From an archaeon (GTDB lineage Archaea; Nanobdellota; Nanobdellia; Pacearchaeales; GW2011-AR1): a DNA stretch of 64,000 nucleotides. The notes under the pieces were generated by a model, which saw only the letters and a list, made by a program, of their open reading frames with translations, did no database searches and had not been told where the DNA came from. Both the position numbers and the translations under genes were made by a program. This document shows positions 2,660 to 35,451 of this stretch, piece after piece; positions within the stretch are counted from its first letter, which is position 1, and every line of letters starts with the position of its first letter. The stretch spans positions 173,386-237,385 of the forward strand of contig DAHWKL010000002.1 of assembly GCA_027343665.1 (NCBI GenBank). Reading direction: 5' to 3'.

Positions 2660-3661
2660 ATGGAACAACAAACAATACTGGCTGATTATGACAGGCAATT
2701 CAGCTGGCATAACTACAATGAATCTCAAACTAAAGAGAAAGCTCTATTCGTGAATATACTAAATGACCTTTGTTCTTTACTTGAAGAACCAGAACACTAT
2801 AAAGTAGGAAGAAAACCGACGAGAACAAGAGATGTAATCTTCTCACTTGTTCTAAAACAATATCTCAATATTTCATCAAGAAGAGTTCAGTCCGATTTGA
2901 AACTATTTAAAGAAGCAGGCTTTCTTGAATCCGAAATTCCATTTAATACTCTCCTTGACCATCTTGAGAGAAGAGACTTAAAACATATCTTCAAGGAATT
3001 AATTGAAATCTCTGCTTTACCATTGAAAGAAATTGAGCTTGACTTTGCAATAGACTCAACTGGATTTTCAACTTCAAGATATAAAACCTTCTTTAATATG
3101 AAGCATGGTGGAGAAGGAAAGTGGAGACAATATAGAAAGTGTCATGCAGTTTGCGGAGTTCAAACAAATGTCATTACTTCTGTTGAAATTACCGAAGGTT
3201 ATGTGAATGACCAAAAACAATTTATTCCGTTAGCAAATGATACTGCAAGAAATTTTAAAATAAGAGACTTTTGTGCGGATAAAGGATATTTGTCAAGCAA
3301 AAATTTTGCTTTGATTAAAGAACTTGGAGGACAAGCATATATTCCATTTAAGAAAAACTCCTCGGGAAAATGTTCTGACAATCAAAGAAGCTACTTTAAA
3401 TCTGCTTTCAAATTTTTCAAAGCACATAAAGAAGAATACCTGACTCATTACCACAAAAGAAGCAATATTGAGTCAGCTTTCTCAATGATAAAAAGACGTT
3501 TCGGAAATAATGTGAAATGTAAAAAGGAAACTTCACAGGATAATGAGATTTATGCAAAAGTTCTGGCACATAATATTTGTGTTCTTGTTCAAGAAATTTT
3601 TCTAAATAAGATAAATATAGATTTCAAATTTCGTGCAGAGAACTATGTTGCACGAGAATAA
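2660..3661 (+). CDS. IS4-like DDE transposase
   Basis: This is a 333-residue transposase with the three acidic residues of the RNase H-like core: Asp in DFAIDSTGF, Asp in CADKGYLS, and Glu in RSNIESAFSMIKRRF. The last falls in the Y-2-R-3-E-6-K pattern (YHKRSNIESAFSMIK) characteristic of the IS4 group. The N-terminal part (GRKPTRTRDVIFSL) is the usual helical DNA-binding region. Length and motifs look intact, so the enzyme may be active. I could not define terminal inverted repeats with confidence, so the ends of the element are unknown. Confidence 0.88.
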   Translation: MEQQTILADYDRQFSWHNYNESQTKEKALFVNILNDLCSLLEEPEHYKVGRKPTRTRDVIFSLVLKQYLNISSRRVQSDLKLFKEAGFLESEIPFNTLLDHLERRDLKHIFKELIEISALPLKEIELDFAIDSTGFSTSRYKTFFNMKHGGEGKWRQYRKCHAVCGVQTNVITSVEITEGYVNDQKQFIPLANDTARNFKIRDFCADKGYLSSKNFALIKELGGQAYIPFKKNSSGKCSDNQRSYFKSAFKFFKAHKEEYLTHYHKRSNIESAFSMIKRRFGNNVKCKKETSQDNEIYAKVLAHNICVLVQEIFLNKINIDFKFRAENYVARE

Positions 3662-10818: not shown

Positions 10819-12174
10819 ATGGCAAAAATAGGCCTAGAAATACATGGTTACATTGATACAAAAGAGAAACTTTTCTGCACTTGCCTGTCAGACCACGGAA
10901 AAAAAGACACAAAACCAAATACCAATATCTGTCCTGTTTGCACAGGACAACCCGGATCAAAACCGCTCTTGCCAAACCAGGAAGCTATAAAAAAAGCGAC
11001 AGAAATTGCTCTTTTGTTAAAATGCAAAATAAATGAAAAAATACCATGGCAGAGAAAACATTATTCATGGCCTGATTTGCCCAAAGGTTTCCAGAGCACT
11101 TTTTCCGGACCGCATGCGATACCCAACGGAGAAAGCGGAGAGTTTATGGGAATAAGAATAAGAGAATGCCATCTTGAAGAGGATCCGGCAGCTTGGAATC
11201 CGGATACAGGAGAGATAGATTACAATCGCTCAGGAAGCCCATTGATAGAAATTGTAACAGAACCGGATTTCAAAGAAAGTGAAGAAGTGGCAGAGTGGGT
11301 GAAAAATTTGATAGTTGCATTAAGTTACATAAAAGCCATAGACAAGAATTCCGGAGTGAAAGCCGATGTCAATGTCTCAATCCCCGGCGGAAAAAGAGTC
11401 GAGATGAAAAATATAAATTCCATAAAAAAGATAAAAGAAGCGATCGAAGTCGAGATTGAAAGACAGAAAAAAGATATCCCTAAATATGAAGAGACAAGGA
11501 TGTACGATGAAAAATCAAAATCGACAAAACTCATGAGGACAAAAGAAAACGCGCAGGATTACAGATTTATAACTGACCCAGACCTTCCTGTTGTGAAAAT
11601 ATCAAAAGAAGAATTGTCAAAAATAAAAAGTTCTATTCCAGAGACTCCCCAGGAAAAACTCAAAAAACTCATAAAAGTTCACAGGATAGACAAAAAGATC
11701 GCAGAGATTCTGACAAAAAAGATAGAAATAGTTGAATTTTTCGAAGAGGTTGCAAAGAAAATTCCGCCTGAATTTGCACTTCCATGGGTGACAGTAGAAC
11801 TTCTAGGAGTCCTCAATTATAATAAGAAAGAACTTGACGAAGTTGAGATAAACCCGGAGCATTTCATTGAACTTCTCGAAGCAGTTAAAGAAAAAAAGAT
11901 AACTGAGCTTCAGGCAAAAGACATTTTAAGAAGCTGGATCCCAAAGTCATATTCACCTAAAGAAAGAATAGAGAAAAGCTCAAAAATCGATGACAAAGAC
12001 GAGATACATTCTATCGCTAAAAAAGTTATCTCAGAAAACAAAAAAGCGGTCGAAGATTTCAAAAGCGGGGAAAAGAATTCTCTGAATTTCCTCATAGGTC
12101 AGATAATGAAACTTTCAAACAAAAGAGCGGATTACAAGACTGCCAAAGAAGTTTTGGAAAAGTTATTGAGATAA
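10819..12174 (+). CDS. gatB: Asp/Glu-tRNA amidotransferase subunit B
   Basis: This 451-residue protein is the kinase-amidotransferase subunit of GatCAB. It begins with the GatB/E signature GLEIHGYIDTKEKLFC and has two cysteine pairs (CTC and CPVC) forming the zinc site, then LPKGFQSTFSGPHAIPNG. The C-terminal part is the YqeY-like helical domain that binds tRNA (ITELQAKDILRSW). It follows the asparaginase-like gene. Its last 43 bases overlap, in convergent orientation, the end of the DGR reverse transcriptase gene. Confidence 0.93.
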   Translation: MAKIGLEIHGYIDTKEKLFCTCLSDHGKKDTKPNTNICPVCTGQPGSKPLLPNQEAIKKATEIALLLKCKINEKIPWQRKHYSWPDLPKGFQSTFSGPHAIPNGESGEFMGIRIRECHLEEDPAAWNPDTGEIDYNRSGSPLIEIVTEPDFKESEEVAEWVKNLIVALSYIKAIDKNSGVKADVNVSIPGGKRVEMKNINSIKKIKEAIEVEIERQKKDIPKYEETRMYDEKSKSTKLMRTKENAQDYRFITDPDLPVVKISKEELSKIKSSIPETPQEKLKKLIKVHRIDKKIAEILTKKIEIVEFFEEVAKKIPPEFALPWVTVELLGVLNYNKKELDEVEINPEHFIELLEAVKEKKITELQAKDILRSWIPKSYSPKERIEKSSKIDDKDEIHSIAKKVISENKKAVEDFKSGEKNSLNFLIGQIMKLSNKRADYKTAKEVLEKLLR

Positions 12175-13188
12175 CTACTTAGGAAGTTTCTGCTGTTTCC
12201 CAATCTTGCATAAGCTTCCCAGCCCTGCAAAAATTCTGATAAGCTCTCTAAAGAGATATTTCCTAAGTTAAACTGTTCAAGCTTTCTGTGCATATTCCTG
12301 ATATTTCTTTTTCTCAAAAGCCTGAAACGGTAAAAATTCCTGAAGCCTACAAAATCGACTCCTCTTGAGAGATTTATTATCTTGGATTTGTCAGGATGAA
12401 GTTCCAGATCCAGATTTTTTTTTAAGAAATCCTCAATTTCCCTTTTCCATATCTCCAGCTGCTCCTTTGATTTATGCAAAATCACAAAATCATCGACATA
12501 CCTTATATAATATCTGGCTTTCAATTTATGTTTTACAAATTGATCAAGCTCATTCAGGTAAATGTTCGCGAAAAATTGGGAAGTCAGATTTCCGAGAGGC
12601 ATCCCTTTTGAAGATAATTTGACGCAGTCGCTCACCCCCCCCCGAACCGGAGCCGTTCTCAAGAATTTTCTTTGTAAGAAAAAGAACTTTTTCATCGGAA
12701 AGTTTCCTCGCTATTATCCTTAAAAGAATGTTTCGGTCTATCTCCTGAAAATAATGTTTTATATCTGCTTTGAAGCAAAATCCTCCCGAGGTGAAATTTC
12801 GGGTGACTTTCCTTTCAAAGTTCTCGAACCTCTCAAGAGCGAATAAAGTCCCTTTCCCTTTCCTGTTTGCGCAGCTGTCATAAATAAAAGTCTTGTCAAA
12901 AATCGGCTCGATTATATTGCACAATGCATGGTGGACAATCCTGTCTCGAAAGTCCGACTTTGAAATTTTGCGGGTTTTAGGGTCGCGCAAAACAAAAGTC
13001 TTCATAGGTCTTGGCATATAAGATTGGTTCTCAAGTTCATCATGCAAAATCTTCAGATTGTAAGCCAGATCTTCATTGAACTTTTTGACGTAATCCTTAT
13101 ATGTCTTTCCTTTCCTTGCCCTGCTGTAAGCAATAATCAGGTTCTTCAAAGAAATGATTTCTGAGTACAGGTTATTGCAGGTTTTCAT
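12132..13188 (-). pseudogene. DGR reverse transcriptase, frameshifted at a G9 tract
   Basis: Two overlapping frames, 12550-13188 and 12132-12695, together encode one reverse transcriptase of about 351 residues. The N-terminal part has MPRPMKTFVLRDPKTRK and the motif A segment FKADIKHYFQEID. The C-terminal part has GMPLGNLTSQFFANIYL and the catalytic RYVDDFVI. The GNLTSQ form of motif 4 is diagnostic of diversity-generating retroelement RTs, as opposed to the PQG form of group II introns. Removing one G from the tract at 12635-12643 joins the frames seamlessly. All catalytic motifs are present, so the break is recent, an assembly error, or regulated slippage. It lies just downstream of the template repeat. 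No Avd-type accessory gene is seen. Confidence 0.92.
12635..12643 (-). other. Nine-G homopolymer where the RT frame breaks
   Basis: The sense strand has nine consecutive G. With nine the N-terminal frame runs on as GGGERLRQ; with eight it reads GGVSDCVKLSSKGMPLGN straight into motif 4. This may be a sequencing or assembly length error, or a slippage-prone switch. Confidence 0.85.
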
Positions 13189-13211
13189 CTTAAAAGTCCC
13201 GGAGATAAATT

Positions 13212-13295
13212 ATTCCAAGGTCGGAATTGGCGTTAGACGGATTCCTGTTGCAATTCAGGTTAGCCCTGTCGGAATTCGCGTTGAACCTCGCGACC
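13212..13295 (-). repeat. DGR template repeat (TR)
   Basis: This 84-bp noncoding repeat lies 24 bases upstream of the RT start. It aligns without gaps to VR1 (13544-13627) and VR2 (14281-14364). On the sense strand it contains eight AAY codons in the target-protein frame; read in that frame it would encode VARFNANSDRANLNCNRNPS and continue with NANSDLG. Of 23 adenines (T on the + strand), 19 are substituted in at least one VR. None of the other 61 bases is changed. Homology ends sharply at both sides. It would be transcribed, copied with adenine errors and used to overwrite the VRs. Confidence 0.96.
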
Positions 13296-13521
13296 GCCTA
13301 GCCGAATTACCATTTGCCACCGCGGTTTCAATTTTCGCTTAAAGCTACCGATTGTCGCCGCTGAATTTTACTGGTCCGCTTTGCGGACACTAATAATCCG
13401 GCGTGTAGTCCATCTCCACATCTCCTGTTCAAAGAGACAGAAGTTTTAGGACAAAAACTCAAGTGCACATCTGTTTAAAATTTTTGCGGGTGGCTTAATT
13501 TCATGCCGGCGAGCAAAGCAT
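13296..13521 (-). ncRNA. Noncoding leader between VR1 gene and TR
   Basis: This roughly 226-bp stretch has no convincing open frame. It is more GC-rich than its surroundings and contains a strong hairpin GTCCGC-TTT-GCGGAC (13374-13388). In characterised DGRs, sequence flanking TR is part of the RNA needed for template-primed cDNA synthesis, so this probably forms the 5' part of the TR RNA. The boundaries and role are inference. Confidence 0.5.
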
Positions 13522-14217
13522 TCATAAGCGCCTGACGGCGCGTACCCCAAGGTCGGAAATGGCGCCAGACGGACCCCGGTAGCAACTCAGGAAAGCCCCG
13601 CCGGAATCCGCGTCGAACCTCGCGACCGATTTATTGTCTTTCATAGGAGCATAATAATACAGTTTTCCTTCTTTAACATCCGACTTTGGAAGCCCCTGGG
13701 GGGTATGGTTATCCAAATAATCTTCAAGGGAGATTCCTGGAGTCCTGCTCGTCATCAGAGTATCGTCGGCAAGGGCATCAGAATCCTTAGGAATAAGATT
13801 CCCTGATGAATCAAGAATATGATTGTAATTCACATATAACTGCTCCCCTTTCACCTTGAAATCGGCGTCAAGCCACTCTGCTCTCCAAGGCGATTTTACC
13901 TCTGTGATGTCGTCATATATATCTTTATGGTTTACCTTGGTGTATTTAAGGAATTCAACGAATTCCGGAATCGTGAGCATTCTGCTGTTCTCACCCAAAA
14001 GCCCCTTGTGGCAGTCAAACCAATTCTCCCCAAGAAAGCTCTTTTCTCTCGCGACATAAAGATTTACTGTAGGAACATAAATGAAACCGTCGAGATTCGG
14101 GGCATTTGCCGGAGAAGCCTGCGAATTGCTTTTTGGAGGCTCCTCACTCATGATTCTTTCATAGACTTTCCTCATTTCTTCTTCGTTGCTTCCTTCAAAC
14201 ATCTTTGGTAGTTTCAT
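13522..14217 (-). CDS. DGR variable target protein 1 (C-type-lectin-like)
   Basis: This is a 231-residue protein whose last ~35 residues are encoded by VR1 and end in SDLGVRAVRRL. The C-terminal domain (GKLYYYAPMKDNKSVARF onward) has the form of the formylglycine-generating-enzyme/C-type-lectin fold used by DGR targets. The final LGVRAVR matches the closing strand of that fold. The first 24 residues, containing GSNEEEMRKVYERIMSE, are almost identical to those of target protein 2 and may be a docking or sorting tag. No signal peptide is present, suggesting an intracellular protein. Variable residues relative to TR include N to D, G, F, S, Y and I. It lies downstream of VP2 and the ATPase. Confidence 0.9.
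   Translation of the reverse strand: MKLPKMFEGSNEEEMRKVYERIMSEEPPKSNSQASPANAPNLDGFIYVPTVNLYVAREKSFLGENWFDCHKGLLGENSRMLTIPEFVEFLKYTKVNHKDIYDDITEVKSPWRAEWLDADFKVKGEQLYVNYNHILDSSGNLIPKDSDALADDTLMTSRTPGISLEDYLDNHTPQGLPKSDVKEGKLYYYAPMKDNKSVARFDADSGGAFLSCYRGPSGAISDLGVRAVRRL
13528..13541 (-). other. Hairpin at the 3' edge of VR1
   Basis: GCGCC and GGCGC form a 5-bp GC stem around a four-base loop, immediately downstream of VR1 in the coding sense. Known DGRs need a short hairpin or cruciform just after the VR for efficient target recognition. An identical one follows VR2. The same bases also encode the last residues of the protein. Confidence 0.65.
13544..13627 (-). repeat. DGR variable repeat VR1
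   Basis: Ungapped 84-bp match to TR with 16 differences, every one at a TR adenine on the sense strand. Changes are to G, C or T. It encodes the target residues VARFDADSGGAFLSCYRGPS and the following GAISDLG. The two differences next to its 3' end (13545, 13546) are shared with VR2 and may belong to the initiation (IMH) boundary rather than mutagenesis. Confidence 0.95.
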
Positions 14218-14258
14218 TTTGTTTTGTCCTTATTTTATTTGCCAGCGAGCAAATCCTT

Positions 14259-15002
14259 TTACAAGCGCCTGACGGCGCGTACCCCAAGGTCGGAATTGGC
14301 GTCAGACGGATACCTGATGCAATTCAGGCCAGCCCCGCCGGAACTCGCGCCGAACCTCGCGACCCTTCCATCTATTGGGTGCCAAAAGTAGATCTTTTCT
14401 CCTTTATTATAACTTTGAGTTGAAGAAGTGCTCGTCGGGATTCCCTGGGTGCTCAGTTTGGAAAAATCAACCCATCCGTCTTGCGTCAGGCAAGATTCAA
14501 GGTCTTCTTTCTTGGTTACAAGATTATCATTATTGTCAAAACCTGTGACATACTCGATTGATTTTTTCTTTCTTGAAATGTCAAATTTCGCATTCAGCCA
14601 TGTCCAGCAGTCCGAAGTGAGCTGCTTGTATAAGTCTTCTCTTGTTGCATCGCTTAGGAGATTTCCATTCGCGTCAAAAATGGTCTTCCCATTCTTGTAA
14701 GAATCAATAATGTGATTATGAAAAGCCATGAACTCTTTTATTGTCGGAACATAAAGATTCCTTTTCATCACAGCCAGATTTGCCCTGTTGTAGTCAAGCC
14801 CCTTGTCTGTTTCTCCTATCGCGATAACGAATTTCTCTCCGGGAATCTGAACATAATCTGAACCTGTTATATTGGACGGGATTGTTATTGGATTAGGGAG
14901 AGGATCCTGCTTTGGAAGCTCATTCTTTTCGCTCATGATTCTTTCATAGACTTTCCTCATTTCCTCTTCGTTGCTTCCGTCGAATGTCTTTGGGAGTTTC
15001 AT
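14259..15002 (-). CDS. DGR variable target protein 2 (C-type-lectin-like)
   Basis: This is a 247-residue paralogue of target protein 1. It shares the N-terminal 24 residues (GSNEEEMRKVYERIMSE) and the C-terminal lectin-like domain, ending in the identical SDLGVRAVRRL. The central part differs strongly (for example YVQIPGEKFVIAIGETDKG and YVPTIKEFMAFHNHII), so the two may have different frameworks around a similar variable face. VR2 encodes its last ~35 residues. It starts three bases downstream of the AAA+ ATPase stop, so they form one transcript. No signal peptide is visible. Confidence 0.9.
   Translation of the reverse strand: MKLPKTFDGSNEEEMRKVYERIMSEKNELPKQDPLPNPITIPSNITGSDYVQIPGEKFVIAIGETDKGLDYNRANLAVMKRNLYVPTIKEFMAFHNHIIDSYKNGKTIFDANGNLLSDATREDLYKQLTSDCWTWLNAKFDISRKKKSIEYVTGFDNNDNLVTKKEDLESCLTQDGWVDFSKLSTQGIPTSTSSTQSYNKGEKIYFWHPIDGRVARFGASSGGAGLNCIRYPSDANSDLGVRAVRRL
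14265..14278 (-). other. Hairpin at the 3' edge of VR2
   Basis: Same GCGCC-loop-GGCGC hairpin as after VR1, two bases from the repeat edge. Its conservation contrasts with the differing sequence just beyond the stop codons, which supports a role in retrohoming as well as in coding. Confidence 0.65.
14281..14364 (-). repeat. DGR variable repeat VR2
   Basis: Ungapped 84-bp match to TR with 12 differences, all at TR adenines on the sense strand. It encodes VARFGASSGGAGLNCIRYPS and the following DANSDLG. It differs from VR1 at many of the same codons, so the two repeats have been diversified independently. Confidence 0.95.
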
Positions 15003-15005
15003 TTC

Positions 15006-16232
15006 TTATTTGCCTCCTGAATTTTCCTCAACTGCTTTTTCTAGGAAATTTCTCATAAATCCCCACCTTCCCGTGAATCTATCAAGGATTTTCTTTGATT
15101 TCTTGCCCTCTTCAGCCATGATTATCCCTGCCTTAATGTTCTCTTTTTGGGATTCATACTGCGCTCTTGTTGCCTGCACTACTGCGTCCATAGTTGAATA
15201 TTTGTCATTTTGATAAACTTCCCTAACTGCCATGTCATTGAGGATTCCGGAATAAGCCCCAACGAACTTGAAAGCCTGCATCATAGAATCAAAATAATTT
15301 TCCCTGATCTTATCCTCTGAAACTCCTTTTCCCTTCAGGACATGGTCAAAAGACTGGGACAATCTTAATATGGATTTTGCCGCCCTTGGAGAAACTGGCA
15401 AAACCAAAGCCTCGTCAGAGCCCTGCCCGTGATTTGTGACCTGATTTGGCCAGGCGTCTTTCATCTTGGTCTTGCTGTAAGGCCTTCCTCCGACCTCGAC
15501 ATAATCAAGCCCGTGAATTAGGTAATTTGCCACGACCATTTTTTCAAAAGGAATCTCAGACGATACAACTTCATTGTGAGCCTTAAGGACTTCCTTCTCC
15601 AGGCCCCCGTCTTCTGATTGTTTTGAGAAATCAACTCTTGGGTTCGTGTTCCCGGAAAGAATGTTGAAAGTGTCCCAGGCCGTGGGCTTGAAATAATCAG
15701 TGTCTATCGTGACATGCATCCTGTCTTTAAGGGCTCTTCCAAGATCGTTGTTTGATTCCGTGAATTTCTGGCCGATATTCCCTGTTGCGATTCCGACCGA
15801 ATAGCCGTTTCCTATCGGAAAAGTTTTCCCGTTTATCTCGACAAATCCATCGAAAAGATTGAATAGCTGAGCTCTTACTGCAGGAACACAATTCGGGAGT
15901 TCATCTACTACAAAAAGATTGTAATTGATCTTGTCAGTCAGTTCTTTTAGCTCCTGGCTTGAAGAGGCTGTCTTTATCTTCCCAAGGTTTATCTGTTGGA
16001 ACAATTCCCTTGTATCCATATCATTTCTTCCAAGAACGAACATCGATTTTCCAGGGAAATAATCCATCGCATCTTTGGCAAGCTGTGTCTTACCGGAGCC
16101 TGTGTCTCCCTGTAAGAATAAATTCAGTCTGCCGTAGAGGCAGGCATCGACAAAATCATTCATATGCAAAGGCTTTCCCGCGATGTTCGCGAGTTCCGTT
16201 GAATTCTGATAGACTCCTTTATGCCCTTCCAT
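15006..16232 (-). CDS. MoxR-like AAA+ ATPase of the DGR operon
   Basis: This is a 408-residue AAA+ protein. Walker A is GDTGSGKTQLAKD (residues ~42-54), Walker B is LFVVDELPNCVP, followed by a MoxR-like sensor 1 region (GIATGNIGQKF) and an arginine-containing segment (LGRALKDRMHVTID). The C-terminal ~150 residues are helical. MoxR-type ATPases act as chaperones that remodel partner proteins. It overlaps the RHH gene upstream by 14 bases and is three bases from target protein 2. That arrangement suggests the ATPase handles or is controlled by the variable proteins. AAA+ ATPases next to DGR targets are known in predicted conflict systems; the assignment here is inference. Confidence 0.88.
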   Translation of the reverse strand: MEGHKGVYQNSTELANIAGKPLHMNDFVDACLYGRLNLFLQGDTGSGKTQLAKDAMDYFPGKSMFVLGRNDMDTRELFQQINLGKIKTASSSQELKELTDKINYNLFVVDELPNCVPAVRAQLFNLFDGFVEINGKTFPIGNGYSVGIATGNIGQKFTESNNDLGRALKDRMHVTIDTDYFKPTAWDTFNILSGNTNPRVDFSKQSEDGGLEKEVLKAHNEVVSSEIPFEKMVVANYLIHGLDYVEVGGRPYSKTKMKDAWPNQVTNHGQGSDEALVLPVSPRAAKSILRLSQSFDHVLKGKGVSEDKIRENYFDSMMQAFKFVGAYSGILNDMAVREVYQNDKYSTMDAVVQATRAQYESQKENIKAGIIMAEEGKKSKKILDRFTGRWGFMRNFLEKAVEENSGGK

Positions 16233-16365
16233 CTTCTCCCTCCAAAAATTTAGTGAGCGCGAATTCCAGGATATGAGACTTGTTCCTGAAAAATCCTCTT
16301 TTCAGTATTACTTCTATTCTTTTGACTTTCTCTTCGTCAACAGTTATGCTGAGTTTTTGTTTCAT
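16219..16365 (-). CDS. 48-residue ribbon-helix-helix regulator, first gene of the DGR operon
   Basis: This short frame starts at ATG 16363-16365. The sequence begins MKQKLSITVDEEKVKRIEVI and continues through FRNKSHILEFALTKFLEGE, the complete beta-alpha-alpha pattern of a CopG/Arc protein with the usual N-K-S-H turn between helices. Its stop overlaps the ATPase start by 14 bases, which implies translational coupling. An inverted repeat sits over its start region. It most likely represses the operon, limiting both diversification and target expression. Confidence 0.8.
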   Translation of the reverse strand: MKQKLSITVDEEKVKRIEVILKRGFFRNKSHILEFALTKFLEGEDGRA

Positions 16366-16428
16366 AGTATCTTTTGTTTTTTTATACTACTTTTTAGTTG
16401 TAAATAAGATAATATCCGGCTTTATAAA
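16365..16428 (-). promoter_or_regulatory. Promoter and probable operator of the DGR operon
   Basis: A TATA-like TTTATAAA lies at 16421-16428, placing a start site near 16397. Between it and the RHH start codon is an inverted repeat, TAGTAT (16365-16370) and ATACTA (16384-16389). An RHH dimer bound there would block transcription or early elongation. This rests on position and symmetry only. Confidence 0.45.
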
Positions 16429-17943: not shown

Positions 17944-18474
17944 TTAATGAAAATCCTTGCATTGAACCCAATTGTAAATCATTGAATCAAACATCTGTTT
18001 AGAGACCTCAAAAAGAGGTTTTTTTCTTAGAAGAACGGCATCATAAAGTATTTCAGCGATTGTCTCTCTTCTTGAAACCAAATCGGCAGTCAAGACTTTT
18101 GAATTGGAAGGCCATTTAATTTTATCGAATTTTTCTCCGCCAACACAAGAATCAAGGATTACACATTTTTTACCATGAAATCTGGAAAGGTCCTTGGAGA
18201 GGTCTTCTATTTGGTAATGCTGCCCTACACCATTCCACATAGTTGACTTATTCGGATTAGAATGCCCCCAAAAATAAAAGATCACATTGGAATCTTCTTT
18301 TTGAACTTCCAATTCGGTTTTCAAGCCATCCAATCCCGCAATTTTTGGACGATATCCTTCTTTTGCGGCTATTGATTTCATGATATCTAAATCCCTTCTC
18401 ATGTCCAAATTGAATTTTTCATAATCTTCCCCGACATTTGGAACTCCTTTGACTAAATATGCAATATTTTCCAT
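17944..18474 (-). CDS. Caspase-like (clan CD) cysteine peptidase candidate
   Basis: This is a 176-residue protein with a hydrophobic strand ending in a Gly-His pair (VIFYFWGHS, His71) and a second strand ending in Asp-x-Cys (CVILDSCVGG, Cys110). That order and spacing is the catalytic dyad of caspase/metacaspase-fold peptidases. The N-terminal LVKGVPNVGEDYEKF resembles the opening strand and loop of the fold. No signal peptide or extra domain is present, so it is a minimal, cytoplasmic form. It lies 35 bases upstream of gatE on the same strand. Its substrate and regulation are unknown. Similar folds act in cell-death and defence pathways. Confidence 0.65.
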   Translation of the reverse strand: MENIAYLVKGVPNVGEDYEKFNLDMRRDLDIMKSIAAKEGYRPKIAGLDGLKTELEVQKEDSNVIFYFWGHSNPNKSTMWNGVGQHYQIEDLSKDLSRFHGKKCVILDSCVGGEKFDKIKWPSNSKVLTADLVSRRETIAEILYDAVLLRKKPLFEVSKQMFDSMIYNWVQCKDFH

Positions 18475-29583: not shown

Positions 29584-30507
29584 TTATTTGATTTTGCCAA
29601 AAGAATAACAGCCAACAGTTATATCTCTGATAGAAGGAACAGCCACACACACAAGTGAAGACCCATAAGGGTTTCCTGATTCAAAAGCTGAAACATAATT
29701 TCCGTCCTTTCTGGGAGCTAAATAATAAAGATCCCCCTCTTCAACATTATTACTTGGCAAGCCTTGAGAAGTCGATCCTCCTTTGAGAAAGCTTTGAAGT
29801 GAAATTCCGGGTGCTCTATCTTGTTTTAAGGTATTGTTATCAAGTTCTTTCTTGTATGTCGGAAGCAAATGTCCCTCTTTTATTATGCAATTTTTCTTTA
29901 GTGTCAAAATCCCCTTGGAAAAATCAAAATAGTCTTCAAGAAAAGTAGACCTTGTTTTTGCAACTGTATGCGTTTTGGAAAAGTCAAACAGGACTTTTTG
30001 CATGTATTCTGTCTTCAGACGTTCTCCGCCGACTGTGTAAATCTCCTTCCCATTAAGACCTTCAAACAGAACTTTCATGAATTCTCTGGCTTCTTTTATT
30101 GAAGGGACCTTTTTCCCAAGATAAAGGTTAAGCTTCATAAATTCTTCCCAATTTCCTGCAAGACCAGAATCATTATCTCCTCCTATGAACCACCTTCCCA
30201 TAGAATCTTGGGAAGTGTTGCGGAATTTTACTCCCATATATTTTGCAATCTCTTCAAGAGCCCTGTTATTTGGAGAGTCTTTTTTCGTAAACCTTAATCT
30301 GGCAGGACTCATGCAATAACCATTACCGAGATTTATCCAATGCTCTATGCTCGGTTCTGCAATCAGATAAGAATGATCAGGCAACCATGCCTCTTGAGGA
30401 TCAACAACCTCGCTATCGCCCCCTCCGGGGTTACCAAAGCTAAACAAGCTCACAAGGGATTTAGAAACATCCTGATTATAAACCTTTTGAAAAGGTTTTT
30501 GCAACAA
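29584..30507 (-). CDS. DGR target-like protein without a template-derived repeat
   Basis: This 307-residue protein's last ~80 residues align with DGR target protein 1: APGISLQSFL against TPGISLEDYL, QGLPSNNVEEGDLYYLAP against QGLPKSDVKEGKLYYYAP, and KDGNYVSAF against KDNKSVARF. In place of the variable repeat and the LGVRAVRRL end it has ITVGCYSFGKIK, with no match to TR. It is thus a lectin-fold relative that is not, or no longer, diversified by this element. It overlaps the end of the deoxyhypusine synthase gene by 32 bases, so the true start may be slightly further in. Confidence 0.7.
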   Translation of the reverse strand: MLQKPFQKVYNQDVSKSLVSLFSFGNPGGGDSEVVDPQEAWLPDHSYLIAEPSIEHWINLGNGYCMSPARLRFTKKDSPNNRALEEIAKYMGVKFRNTSQDSMGRWFIGGDNDSGLAGNWEEFMKLNLYLGKKVPSIKEAREFMKVLFEGLNGKEIYTVGGERLKTEYMQKVLFDFSKTHTVAKTRSTFLEDYFDFSKGILTLKKNCIIKEGHLLPTYKKELDNNTLKQDRAPGISLQSFLKGGSTSQGLPSNNVEEGDLYYLAPRKDGNYVSAFESGNPYGSSLVCVAVPSIRDITVGCYSFGKIK

Positions 30508-31471
30508 TTAATGGGAAGATTATAGAAGCATCGCCATAGACCTTCACATGCTTTGCTTCAGGCGCAATTTTCCCCCAACTCACAGCTTCTTCAGGAAGAG
30601 CTCCGGAATCAGATCCGTCGAACTCCTGAGCAGTATTAATATAAACTGCATAATTAGCACCATTCCTGAACATATTGGCATTGCACAAGTGATGCTTAAC
30701 AATTCCTCCGCCCAGAACGATTATCCCCGTCTTTTCAGGACCTAGAGTAGTGTTATTAATCTTCCAGATATCTTCAGTTACATCAACTACAAAATCTGGA
30801 TGATTTGATTTGAAAAAATAGATCATATCTCCAAGACTTCCATCAGTTATAGCAGGGCAAAAAACATCTATCTTGTTTTTGTTCGCCCAATAATAGATAG
30901 AGGATTTATCGTTTATCTTTTCGCCTAACTTCCATATGAGCTCAGAGGGCGTAACGATTTTTCCGGTCTCTTTCTGCCTTTTGTAGAACTCTTCAAAAAT
31001 TGGCATTATAAAATCCTCGAAATCACAATACCTTGAATTAGGAATGAAAATATTTCCCGCACGGTTTATTCCTTTTTCACGGAGAACTCTCCCGTCAGCT
31101 CTGAAATCTCCAAGCTTGAAGTCTCCCAAGCATTTTATTATGTCTTCTTCAATTCCTCCTGCGGTCGTCACAAAAACATTGACTTTTTTGTGTTCTGCAA
31201 GAAACCTTATAACCTCTCTCACACCGGAAGTCACCATATTTGAAGTATATCCCAAATATATGAAGGCCTTGTCGCTTATCATCCCGTTTATTATCTCCAC
31301 AGCTTTTGAGAAGTTGCTCGCCTGAATCCCTGTAGTAGCAAAACTGTCAAGTATCTCACTATAATCGACTCCATGATTAAAGTCATATCCTTTTATCGGA
31401 ACACCTGTTGCTTCCTCCGACTTTCTGAGGATATTACCTCTTGCAGTTTTCTCTTTCTCGCGGTTATTCAT
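30476..31471 (-). CDS. dys: Deoxyhypusine synthase
   Basis: This 331-residue NAD-dependent enzyme transfers the butylamine group of spermidine to a lysine of aIF5A, the first step of hypusine formation. The active-site lysine motif GGGIVKHHLCNANMFRNG is intact. YLGYTSNMVTSGVRE and VTTAGGIEEDIIKC form the NAD and spermidine pocket. Length is normal. It is an archaeal/eukaryal marker. Confidence 0.95.
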   Translation of the reverse strand: MNNREKEKTARGNILRKSEEATGVPIKGYDFNHGVDYSEILDSFATTGIQASNFSKAVEIINGMISDKAFIYLGYTSNMVTSGVREVIRFLAEHKKVNVFVTTAGGIEEDIIKCLGDFKLGDFRADGRVLREKGINRAGNIFIPNSRYCDFEDFIMPIFEEFYKRQKETGKIVTPSELIWKLGEKINDKSSIYYWANKNKIDVFCPAITDGSLGDMIYFFKSNHPDFVVDVTEDIWKINNTTLGPEKTGIIVLGGGIVKHHLCNANMFRNGANYAVYINTAQEFDGSDSGALPEEAVSWGKIAPEAKHVKVYGDASIIFPLIVAKTFSKGL

Positions 31472-34890: not shown

Positions 34891-35451
34891 ATGGCATTAT
34901 TTTCAAAGAAAAAAGATAACAAGGAACCCACAATTCCAAAACTTCCGGATCTTCCAAGCTTGCCTTCATTGCCTTCTAGATTCCCCGATATGAATTCTTC
35001 AGAGGACAATGAAATTCCCGAATTGCCCAGTTTCCCCACGGGGGGGGTCGGGGACAAATTCTCAAGAGACACTATAAAAAATGCAATTTCGGGGGATGAT
35101 GATGACGAACCGATAATATCTCCGGAAGAACTAGTTCCGAAACCAGCCATGATTCCTCAAAAACCAATGTCAATGGAGAGGATGAAAAAAATCACCCCCA
35201 TGGAAAGACCTGAAGAAAGAGCAATTCCCAAGGAAACAGGACCGGTTTTCATAAGGATAGACAAATTTGAAGAGGCGCTTAATATATTCAAGGAAACAAG
35301 GAAAAAGATAGAAGAGATTGAAAGTCTTCTTGGTGAGACTAAAGAAATAAAACAGAAGGAAGAAGAGGAATTGTCAACCTGGGAAGAAGAGATACAAGAG
35401 ATGAAACAGCAAATAGAAAAGGTTGACAGAGATATTTTCTCAAGAATATAA
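34891..35451 (+). CDS. Proline-rich/coiled-coil protein, first of a pair
   Basis: This is a 186-residue protein. The N-terminal half is disordered and rich in Pro, Leu and Ser (IPKLPDLPSLPSLPSRFPD); the C-terminal half (residues ~110-186) is a charged coiled coil. It overlaps the next gene by one base (TAATG), so the two are produced together and may form a complex. No family recognised. A GGTG motif upstream may serve as ribosome-binding site. Confidence 0.65.
   Translation: MALFSKKKDNKEPTIPKLPDLPSLPSLPSRFPDMNSSEDNEIPELPSFPTGGVGDKFSRDTIKNAISGDDDDEPIISPEELVPKPAMIPQKPMSMERMKKITPMERPEERAIPKETGPVFIRIDKFEEALNIFKETRKKIEEIESLLGETKEIKQKEEEELSTWEEEIQEMKQQIEKVDRDIFSRI

Follow-up and report, generated by a model that had tools for sequence, protein, structure and literature searches.

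The closest described systems combine a MoxR-like ATPase with variable sensors. In the MoxR-vWA ternary conflict systems (VMAP, iSTAND, FtsH and beta-propeller types; Kaur et al. 2020, PMC7159879), a MoxR-like AAA+ ATPase is found together with a von Willebrand factor A (vWA) co-chaperone and a variable sensor-like part, and some of these systems contain diversity-generating retroelements (DGRs). In multicellular bacteria, DGR targets with a C-type lectin (CLec) domain adjoin a MoxR ATPase and have a proposed sensor role (Dore et al. 2024, PMC10907252, clades 5A-5E); one of the locus types described there has a helix-turn-helix gene. The DGRs of candidate phyla radiation (CPR) bacteria and DPANN archaea in clade 5F are said to lack conflict-system partners (PMC10907252), archaeal clade 5 targets are without recognisable domains (Roux et al., PMC8144416), and DPANN DGR targets are usually read as host-attachment proteins (PMC6349945; PMC5006420). 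Here we analyse a locus in a stretch of 64,000 nucleotides (hereafter the window; contig DAHWKL010000002.1) from an archaeon of the Pacearchaeales, in which two DGR target proteins, VP1 and VP2, share an operon with a MoxR-like ATPase and a ribbon-helix-helix (RHH) regulator gene.

The locus resembles the ternary conflict systems in its MoxR-like AAA+ ATPase, in the vWA co-chaperone (protein X, below) of most relatives, and in its variable sensor-like part. It differs from them (PMC7159879) in that no effector domain was seen, the vWA, undetectable by Pfam, is fused to an HExxH domain, the sensors carry locus-specific N-terminal tags, the hosts are DPANN archaea, and the window is without a vWA gene. 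No VMAP, iSTAND, FtsH or beta-propeller third component was matched by Pfam in the window proteins scanned, and the propeller-like sensor of a related locus (L032) is not fused to a vWA. Since the window lacks two hallmarks of the ternary systems, the vWA and a named third component, we regard it as a variant and not as a member. Unlike the systems of PMC10907252, the present one has a conserved MoxR(-vWA) link in DPANN and separate tagged sensors. With the Nanoarchaeota DGRs and AvpA (Paul 2015, PMC4372165; Handa 2016, PMC5006420) it shares the CLec target, the two forms of the initiation of mutagenic homing site (IMH, TGGGGT; IMH*, TGGAAT) and a hairpin within the target gene, whereas the linked ATPase, the RHH and the tag are undescribed there, and the hairpin loop is GTCA here versus GRA.

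All components lie on the minus strand, in the order RHH, ATPase, VP2, VP1, template repeat (TR) and two overlapping reverse transcriptase (RT) frames (Table 1). The preliminary description placed RHH, ATPase and targets in one tightly coupled operon, and the coordinates, the 14-bp overlap of RHH and ATPase and the 3-bp gap between ATPase and VP2 were all confirmed, as was conservation of the operon in relatives; the TR and RT, which also belong to the locus, had not been included. The ATPase matches Pfam AAA_5, and matches bpMoxR below the cut-off of that family (E 0.013). It has a Walker A motif (GDTGSGKTQ), a Walker B motif (VVDELP) and a sensor-2-like SPRA. Among 180 family genomes, 18 contained a relative, and among 200 genomes at the level of the order, 23 did; these collections are samples and not complete, consisting of metagenome-assembled and incomplete genomes in which many contigs break within loci. 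The recurrent gene order is [RHH]-ATPase-VP(s)-X-VP, with TR and RT added where a DGR is present, and conserved operons were found in Pacearchaeota, Woesearchaeota, other Nanoarchaeia and Micrarchaeota. Because this order recurs in many related genomes, the arrangement is well beyond chance. Used as a single-protein query against the genome contig collection, the ATPase gave no match. As an observation on its own, one genome (G125) has, beside another full ATPase, a second locus (L034, 4898-5927) made up of an RHH gene, an ATPase truncated to a 34-aa remnant and a degenerate target, which looks like module turnover.

Protein X, of 583 aa, is present in most related loci and missing from the window. 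It combines the motif HExxH...GCP...H...NA(F/L)ED with a vWA domain whose metal-ion-dependent adhesion site (MIDAS; DxSxS...T...D) is intact, and both MIDAS and HxxxH are conserved among X proteins. Neither Pfam (17 members, E<=10), NCBIfam, PHROGs nor PDB sequences gave it a name. Membership in Pfam DUF2201_N was considered and rejected, PF13203 and PF09967 being unmatched in 17 of 17 vWA proteins at E<=10, so that the motif resemblance is a lead only. The AlphaFold2 model of X (pLDDT 85.5) has as its best PDB match the vWA subunit of the NorQ-NorD complex. NorQ-NorD is a MoxR-vWA chaperone pair, and it shares with the present system an AAA_5-type ring ATPase as well as the vWA fold; diversified tagged substrates and the extra HExxH domain set our system apart from it and from related MoxR-vWA pairs. 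X occurs in 14 of the 200 order genomes, all of them among the 23 with the ATPase (hypergeometric P 7e-16), and ATPase distances and X distances are closely correlated (r 0.97). A search of genome contigs with the vWA alignment recovered 21 DPANN loci. In two vWA proteins (L062 and L063), the HExxH glutamate is replaced by glycine (HGCGH) and both histidines are kept, a change that suggests metal binding without catalysis.

The claim that the targets are diversified by a DGR was borne out by the adenine-only differences, the TR and the RT profile matches. All 16 differences between the variable repeat (VR) of VP1 and the 86-nt TR, and all 12 in the 85-nt core of VR2, fall at TR adenines. The VR ends in TTGGGGTA and the TR in TTGGAATA, so that IMH and IMH* match the signature described for Nanoarchaeota DGRs (PMC4372165). 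Adenine-specific VRs are present in many related loci. The features of a DGR are thus all found, namely an RT beside a TR, adenine-specific VRs, IMH/IMH* and a CLec-fold target, with the RT in two frames. The AlphaFold2 model of VP1 shows a tag helix, a disordered linker and then a rigid CLec fold, for which the best PDB folds by Foldseek were LOX-1, NKG2D and Dectin-1 (best E 3e-3, prob 0.99); the proposed lectin-like nature of the sensors thereby agrees with the model. An orphan relative of the targets lies elsewhere in the window (29584-30507, minus strand; VP profile E 5e-24), has neither tag nor ATPase, overlaps the start of a deoxyhypusine synthase gene (30476-31471) and has no matching TR within window positions 11001-34000.

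The N-terminal tag is the feature that connects the targets with the ATPase. VP1 and VP2 are about 92% identical over the first 26 residues and about 24% over the middle, in agreement with the described near-identical 24-residue tag and differing middles; the genome holds only two copies of the MKLPKTFDGSNEEEMRKVYERIMSE-type tag. Among 20 target sets, pairs within a locus showed 79% identity in the first 26 residues and 40% in the middle, and pairs between loci showed 24% and 25%, respectively. In tag DNA, the proportions of synonymous (pS) and nonsynonymous (pN) differences were 0.41 and 0.04 in the window, 0.82 and 0.04 in locus L064, about 0.5 and 0.03 in L065, and 0.36 and 0.12 when pooled. 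Since synonymous changes are many and amino-acid changes few, selection, and not only recent copying, keeps the tag. Tag distance correlated with ATPase distance (Mantel r 0.63, p 2e-4; 0.54 with the sensor's divergence removed), and not significantly with sensor distance when ATPase distance was given (r 0.04). The fit to the vWA protein was slightly closer than that to the ATPase (partial r 0.34, p 0.008), and for this reason the docking target of the tag may be the ATPase/vWA pair instead of the ATPase alone.

Proteins of other folds carry the tag too. In L032 it stands on a propeller-like protein next to the ATPase (the fold was recognised by eye, with no Pfam match), and in L067 and L068 on Chlam_PMP-repeat (beta-helix) proteins adjoining X, where it resembles the tag on the sensors of L071. 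Moreover, several ATPase/X loci lie in genomes without a detected DGR-type RT (L070, L104, L107 and G185), and the sensors at RT-less loci of this kind are tagged but not diversified, or are unrelated. Tags on other folds and RT-less loci together indicate that the core of the system is a tagged-sensor MoxR(-vWA) module, to which the DGR is an optional diversifier. The proposed tie between DGR targets and ATPase stands as a conserved association in which the DGR is optional. Two of these loci have arrangements of their own. In L070 (5328-11199), the vWA gene is surrounded by five tagged proteins in tandem, which represent two sensor types. In L104 (2814-9632), the vWA gene stands among several short proteins with a shared N-terminal NAARINRxxGGVDPREIDL, which appears to be the tag idea in a very divergent form.

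The RHH gene matches Pfam RHH_1 below threshold (E 0.01, 16.2 bits; cut-off 20.5) and is conserved in relatives. The expected order RHH-ATPase-VP, searched for in related genomes, is widely kept, although of 19 family loci only about 11 have the RHH directly 5' of the ATPase. AGTAGTA-like motifs, picked post hoc after inspection of the sequences, occur within 120 nt upstream of the RHH in 9 of 11 loci, with 0.01-0.09 expected per locus. A TTTATAAA-type TATA candidate precedes the RHH in 10 of the 11, at varying distance. Judged from these sequences, the operon is probably repressed by the RHH through sites that lie 5' of the RHH start.

On the basis of these results, we consider it rather probable that the locus represents a DPANN-specific MoxR-type chaperone/sensor module into which a DGR has been plugged. 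VP1 and VP2 would be cytoplasmic CLec-fold sensors, each with a short helical address tag joined through a flexible linker. This tag would bring them to the ring formed by the MoxR-like AAA+ ATPase, joined in most relatives by the HExxH/vWA co-chaperone. From a single TR, the DGR would rewrite the face with which the two sensors bind their ligand and leave the tag constant. Binding of a putative ligand by a docked sensor may then alter the action of the ring, through release, remodelling or, where the domain is present, metallopeptidase action, and the changed action could trigger an internal response; the operon would be under RHH repression. The whole looks like an internal sensing system and not like the usual attachment role.

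Several observations weigh against this interpretation. The co-variation of tag and ATPase may in part reflect common descent, shared ancestry being not fully removed from the Mantel statistics. Two of 17 vWA proteins have lost the HExxH glutamate, and the Foldseek scores are modest (E ~1e-4 for the vWA, 3e-3 for the CLec). The window genome, 88% complete, gave no X by the family profile and no Pfam VWA_2 match, with positive controls, and an apparently complete ATPase-sensor-RT locus (L036) is without X, its genome (G083) likewise giving no X match. Because X is missing from both, it is the usual partner and not a universal one. A vWA supplied from elsewhere in the window genome was considered and rejected, both profile searches being empty; a weak PF13203 match in that genome was taken as spurious, as the open reading frame (ORF) resembles a ribosomal protein. 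Finally, the surroundings of the operon yielded no effector or output domain. Apart from generic RT matches, PADLOC models returned only a weak DolB match, to the ATPase (22 bits, E 1.5e-5), and the suggested defence role, with neither an effector domain nor a PADLOC system match, was not supported. A 176-aa ORF (17944-18474, minus strand) with caspase/CHAT-like motifs (WGHSN, ILDSCVGGE) has a single family relative (G096); it was rejected as an effector, being not conserved with the ATPase and having no structural relative by sequence.

A different view is that the targets are host-attachment or cell-contact proteins, whose folding, assembly or export is aided by ATPase and vWA, the tag being a secretion or assembly signal. 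This is how the literature usually sees DPANN DGRs (PMC6349945; PMC5006420), MoxR-vWA pairs are assembly chaperones elsewhere (PMC7159879), and CLec folds frequently bind surface ligands. Export features were not found, however: none of 49 tagged targets, nor the vWA proteins examined, contains a transmembrane segment or an N-terminal hydrophobic stretch resembling a signal peptide. The tag, moreover, differs wholly between loci, unlike a secretion signal for a conserved translocon. We therefore disfavour attachment and hold it to be unlikely.

The state of the RT bears on whether the window copy works at all. In the reverse TRANSCRIPTASE (RT) of the window, the break falls at a G9 tract within a non-conserved loop that directly precedes KGMPLGNLTSQ. 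With a family profile, RTs were found in 84 of 200 genomes, many of them broken at the same profile position. When the loops were compared (L118-L217; the first 20 were chosen as split, and the others come from the same match list, split or whole), 39 of 105 readable RT genes had a simple repeat at this position (poly-G of 7-13 in 25, AG/GA of 5-13 units in 13 and poly-C in 1). Thirty of the genes with a repeat were out of frame and 9 in frame, versus 2 and 64 of those without (Fisher P 5e-16), and the out-of-frame share fits the two thirds expected under random phase (p 0.23). On the tree, at least 14 gains or losses of the repeat fall on well-supported branches. Nine of 20 inspected split RTs adjoin a TR/VR-like pair, most with all differences at adenines. 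A second poly-G site (G10-G12) splits four RTs (L193, L194, L195 and L196) at a loop near profile position 245. In the window, the only other tract of G8 or longer, or of comparable C or AG/CT, is at 35040-35047 (plus strand), in an ORF unrelated to RT.

Three other accounts of the break were considered and rejected. Its recurrence at one place in many genomes weakens the case for a simple sequencing error; homopolymer lengths in metagenome assemblies can err, and GA repeats are less open to doubt. A programmed frameshift would use one fixed shift, whereas both offsets (+1 and +2) occur among the split RTs. Against gene decay, 29 of the 30 out-of-frame RTs with a repeat consist of exactly two pieces with VDD intact. 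The pattern of repeats suggests a contingency locus, in which the RT may act as a phase-variable mutator. No earlier report of such an RT repeat was found in the literature searched, many subscription papers lying outside the search. Tentatively, and with somewhat more doubt than belief, we put these parts together as adaptive sensing in DPANN: interchangeable sensors docked by their tags would feed a MoxR/HExxH-vWA machine, diversified in many loci by a DGR, whose RT in a subset of lineages including that of the window would be switched by poly-G/GA slippage to give mutator-on and mutator-off cells.

In the window, the module is present in reduced form: the vWA gene is missing and the RT is out of frame at G9. 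Both features could be taken as marks of a decaying, non-working remnant. The RHH, the ATPase and both targets are nevertheless intact and the tags are under purifying selection. The break at a simple repeat is common in otherwise intact RTs and so may be reversible, and VRs that differ from the TR at adenines only indicate that diversification ran and that the VRs have not decayed since. We judge such decay improbable. Much less credible is the notion that adjacent targets share the tag merely through recent gene duplication or conversion and that it serves no docking. The tags of L052, L055 and L060, nearly identical in DNA, do look recently homogenised. The window and several loci, however, combine high synonymous with low amino-acid divergence; tag identity holds over middles of 20-30% identity and differing sensor folds; and the tag follows the ATPase, not the sensor. 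An origin of the module as viral or other mobile-element cargo, at which its patchy spread (23 of 200 order genomes) might hint, is very improbable, given no ATPase or vWA relative in IMG/VR, no ATPase relative in 50,697 phage records, no vWA relative in 72,556 plasmids, and the position of the locus between housekeeping genes (gatB/E-like and aspS-like).

Table 1. Features of the tagged-sensor locus in the window (positions in the 64,000-nt stretch).
Feature	Position	Strand	Basis
TTTATAAA, candidate archaeal TATA box, 63 nt before RHH	16421..16428	-	present in 10/11 loci
AGTAGTA motif 5' of RHH, candidate operator	16385..16391	-	motif count among 11 loci
RHH (CopG-like), 48 aa, first gene of operon, probable autoregulator	16219..16365	-	Pfam sub-threshold; upstream of ATPase in ~11/19 family loci
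MoxR-like AAA+ ATPase, 408 aa	15006..16232	-	Pfam AAA_5 E 1e-9; homologs in 23/200 order genomes
VP2, tagged CLec-type DGR target	14259..15002	-	sequence, VR/TR comparison
VP2 N-terminal tag (MKLPKTFDGSNEEEMRKVYERIMSE)	14928..15002	-	VP1/VP2 comparison, substitution analysis
VR2, core 12/12 differences at TR adenines	14280..14364	-	TR alignment
GCGCC-GTCA-GGCGC hairpin 3' of VR2, same position as in VP1	14265..14278	-	sequence reading
VP1, tagged CLec-type DGR target	13522..14217	-	AlphaFold2 pLDDT 87; PDB fold matches
VP1 N-terminal tag, predicted helix 12-24, then disordered linker 26-43	14143..14217	-	AlphaFold2 model
VR1, 16/16 differences at TR adenines	13543..13628	-	TR alignment
GCGCC-GTCA-GGCGC hairpin 3' of VR1, within target gene	13528..13541	-	sequence reading
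DGR template repeat TR, terminates in IMH* TGGAAT	13211..13296	-	VR/TR comparison; motif as in PMC4372165
DGR RT, N-terminal frame	12550..13188	-	RT profile positions 1-186
DGR RT, C-terminal frame, YVDD intact	12132..12695	-	RT profile positions 188-336
G9 tract where the RT frames meet; candidate phase-variation repeat, here out of frame	12635..12643	-	RT loop comparison

Apart from the locus, a transposase-like ORF of 333 aa, identified by eye only, lies near the left edge of the window (2660-3661, plus strand).

For DPANN archaea, a conserved MoxR ATPase with a vWA partner invisible to all sequence libraries tested gives the DGR targets an intracellular machine, and the tag makes the choice of partner directly testable. 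If the RT repeat is a true phase switch, it would suggest that a mutator can be kept without constant damage, the mutator itself being a contingency gene.

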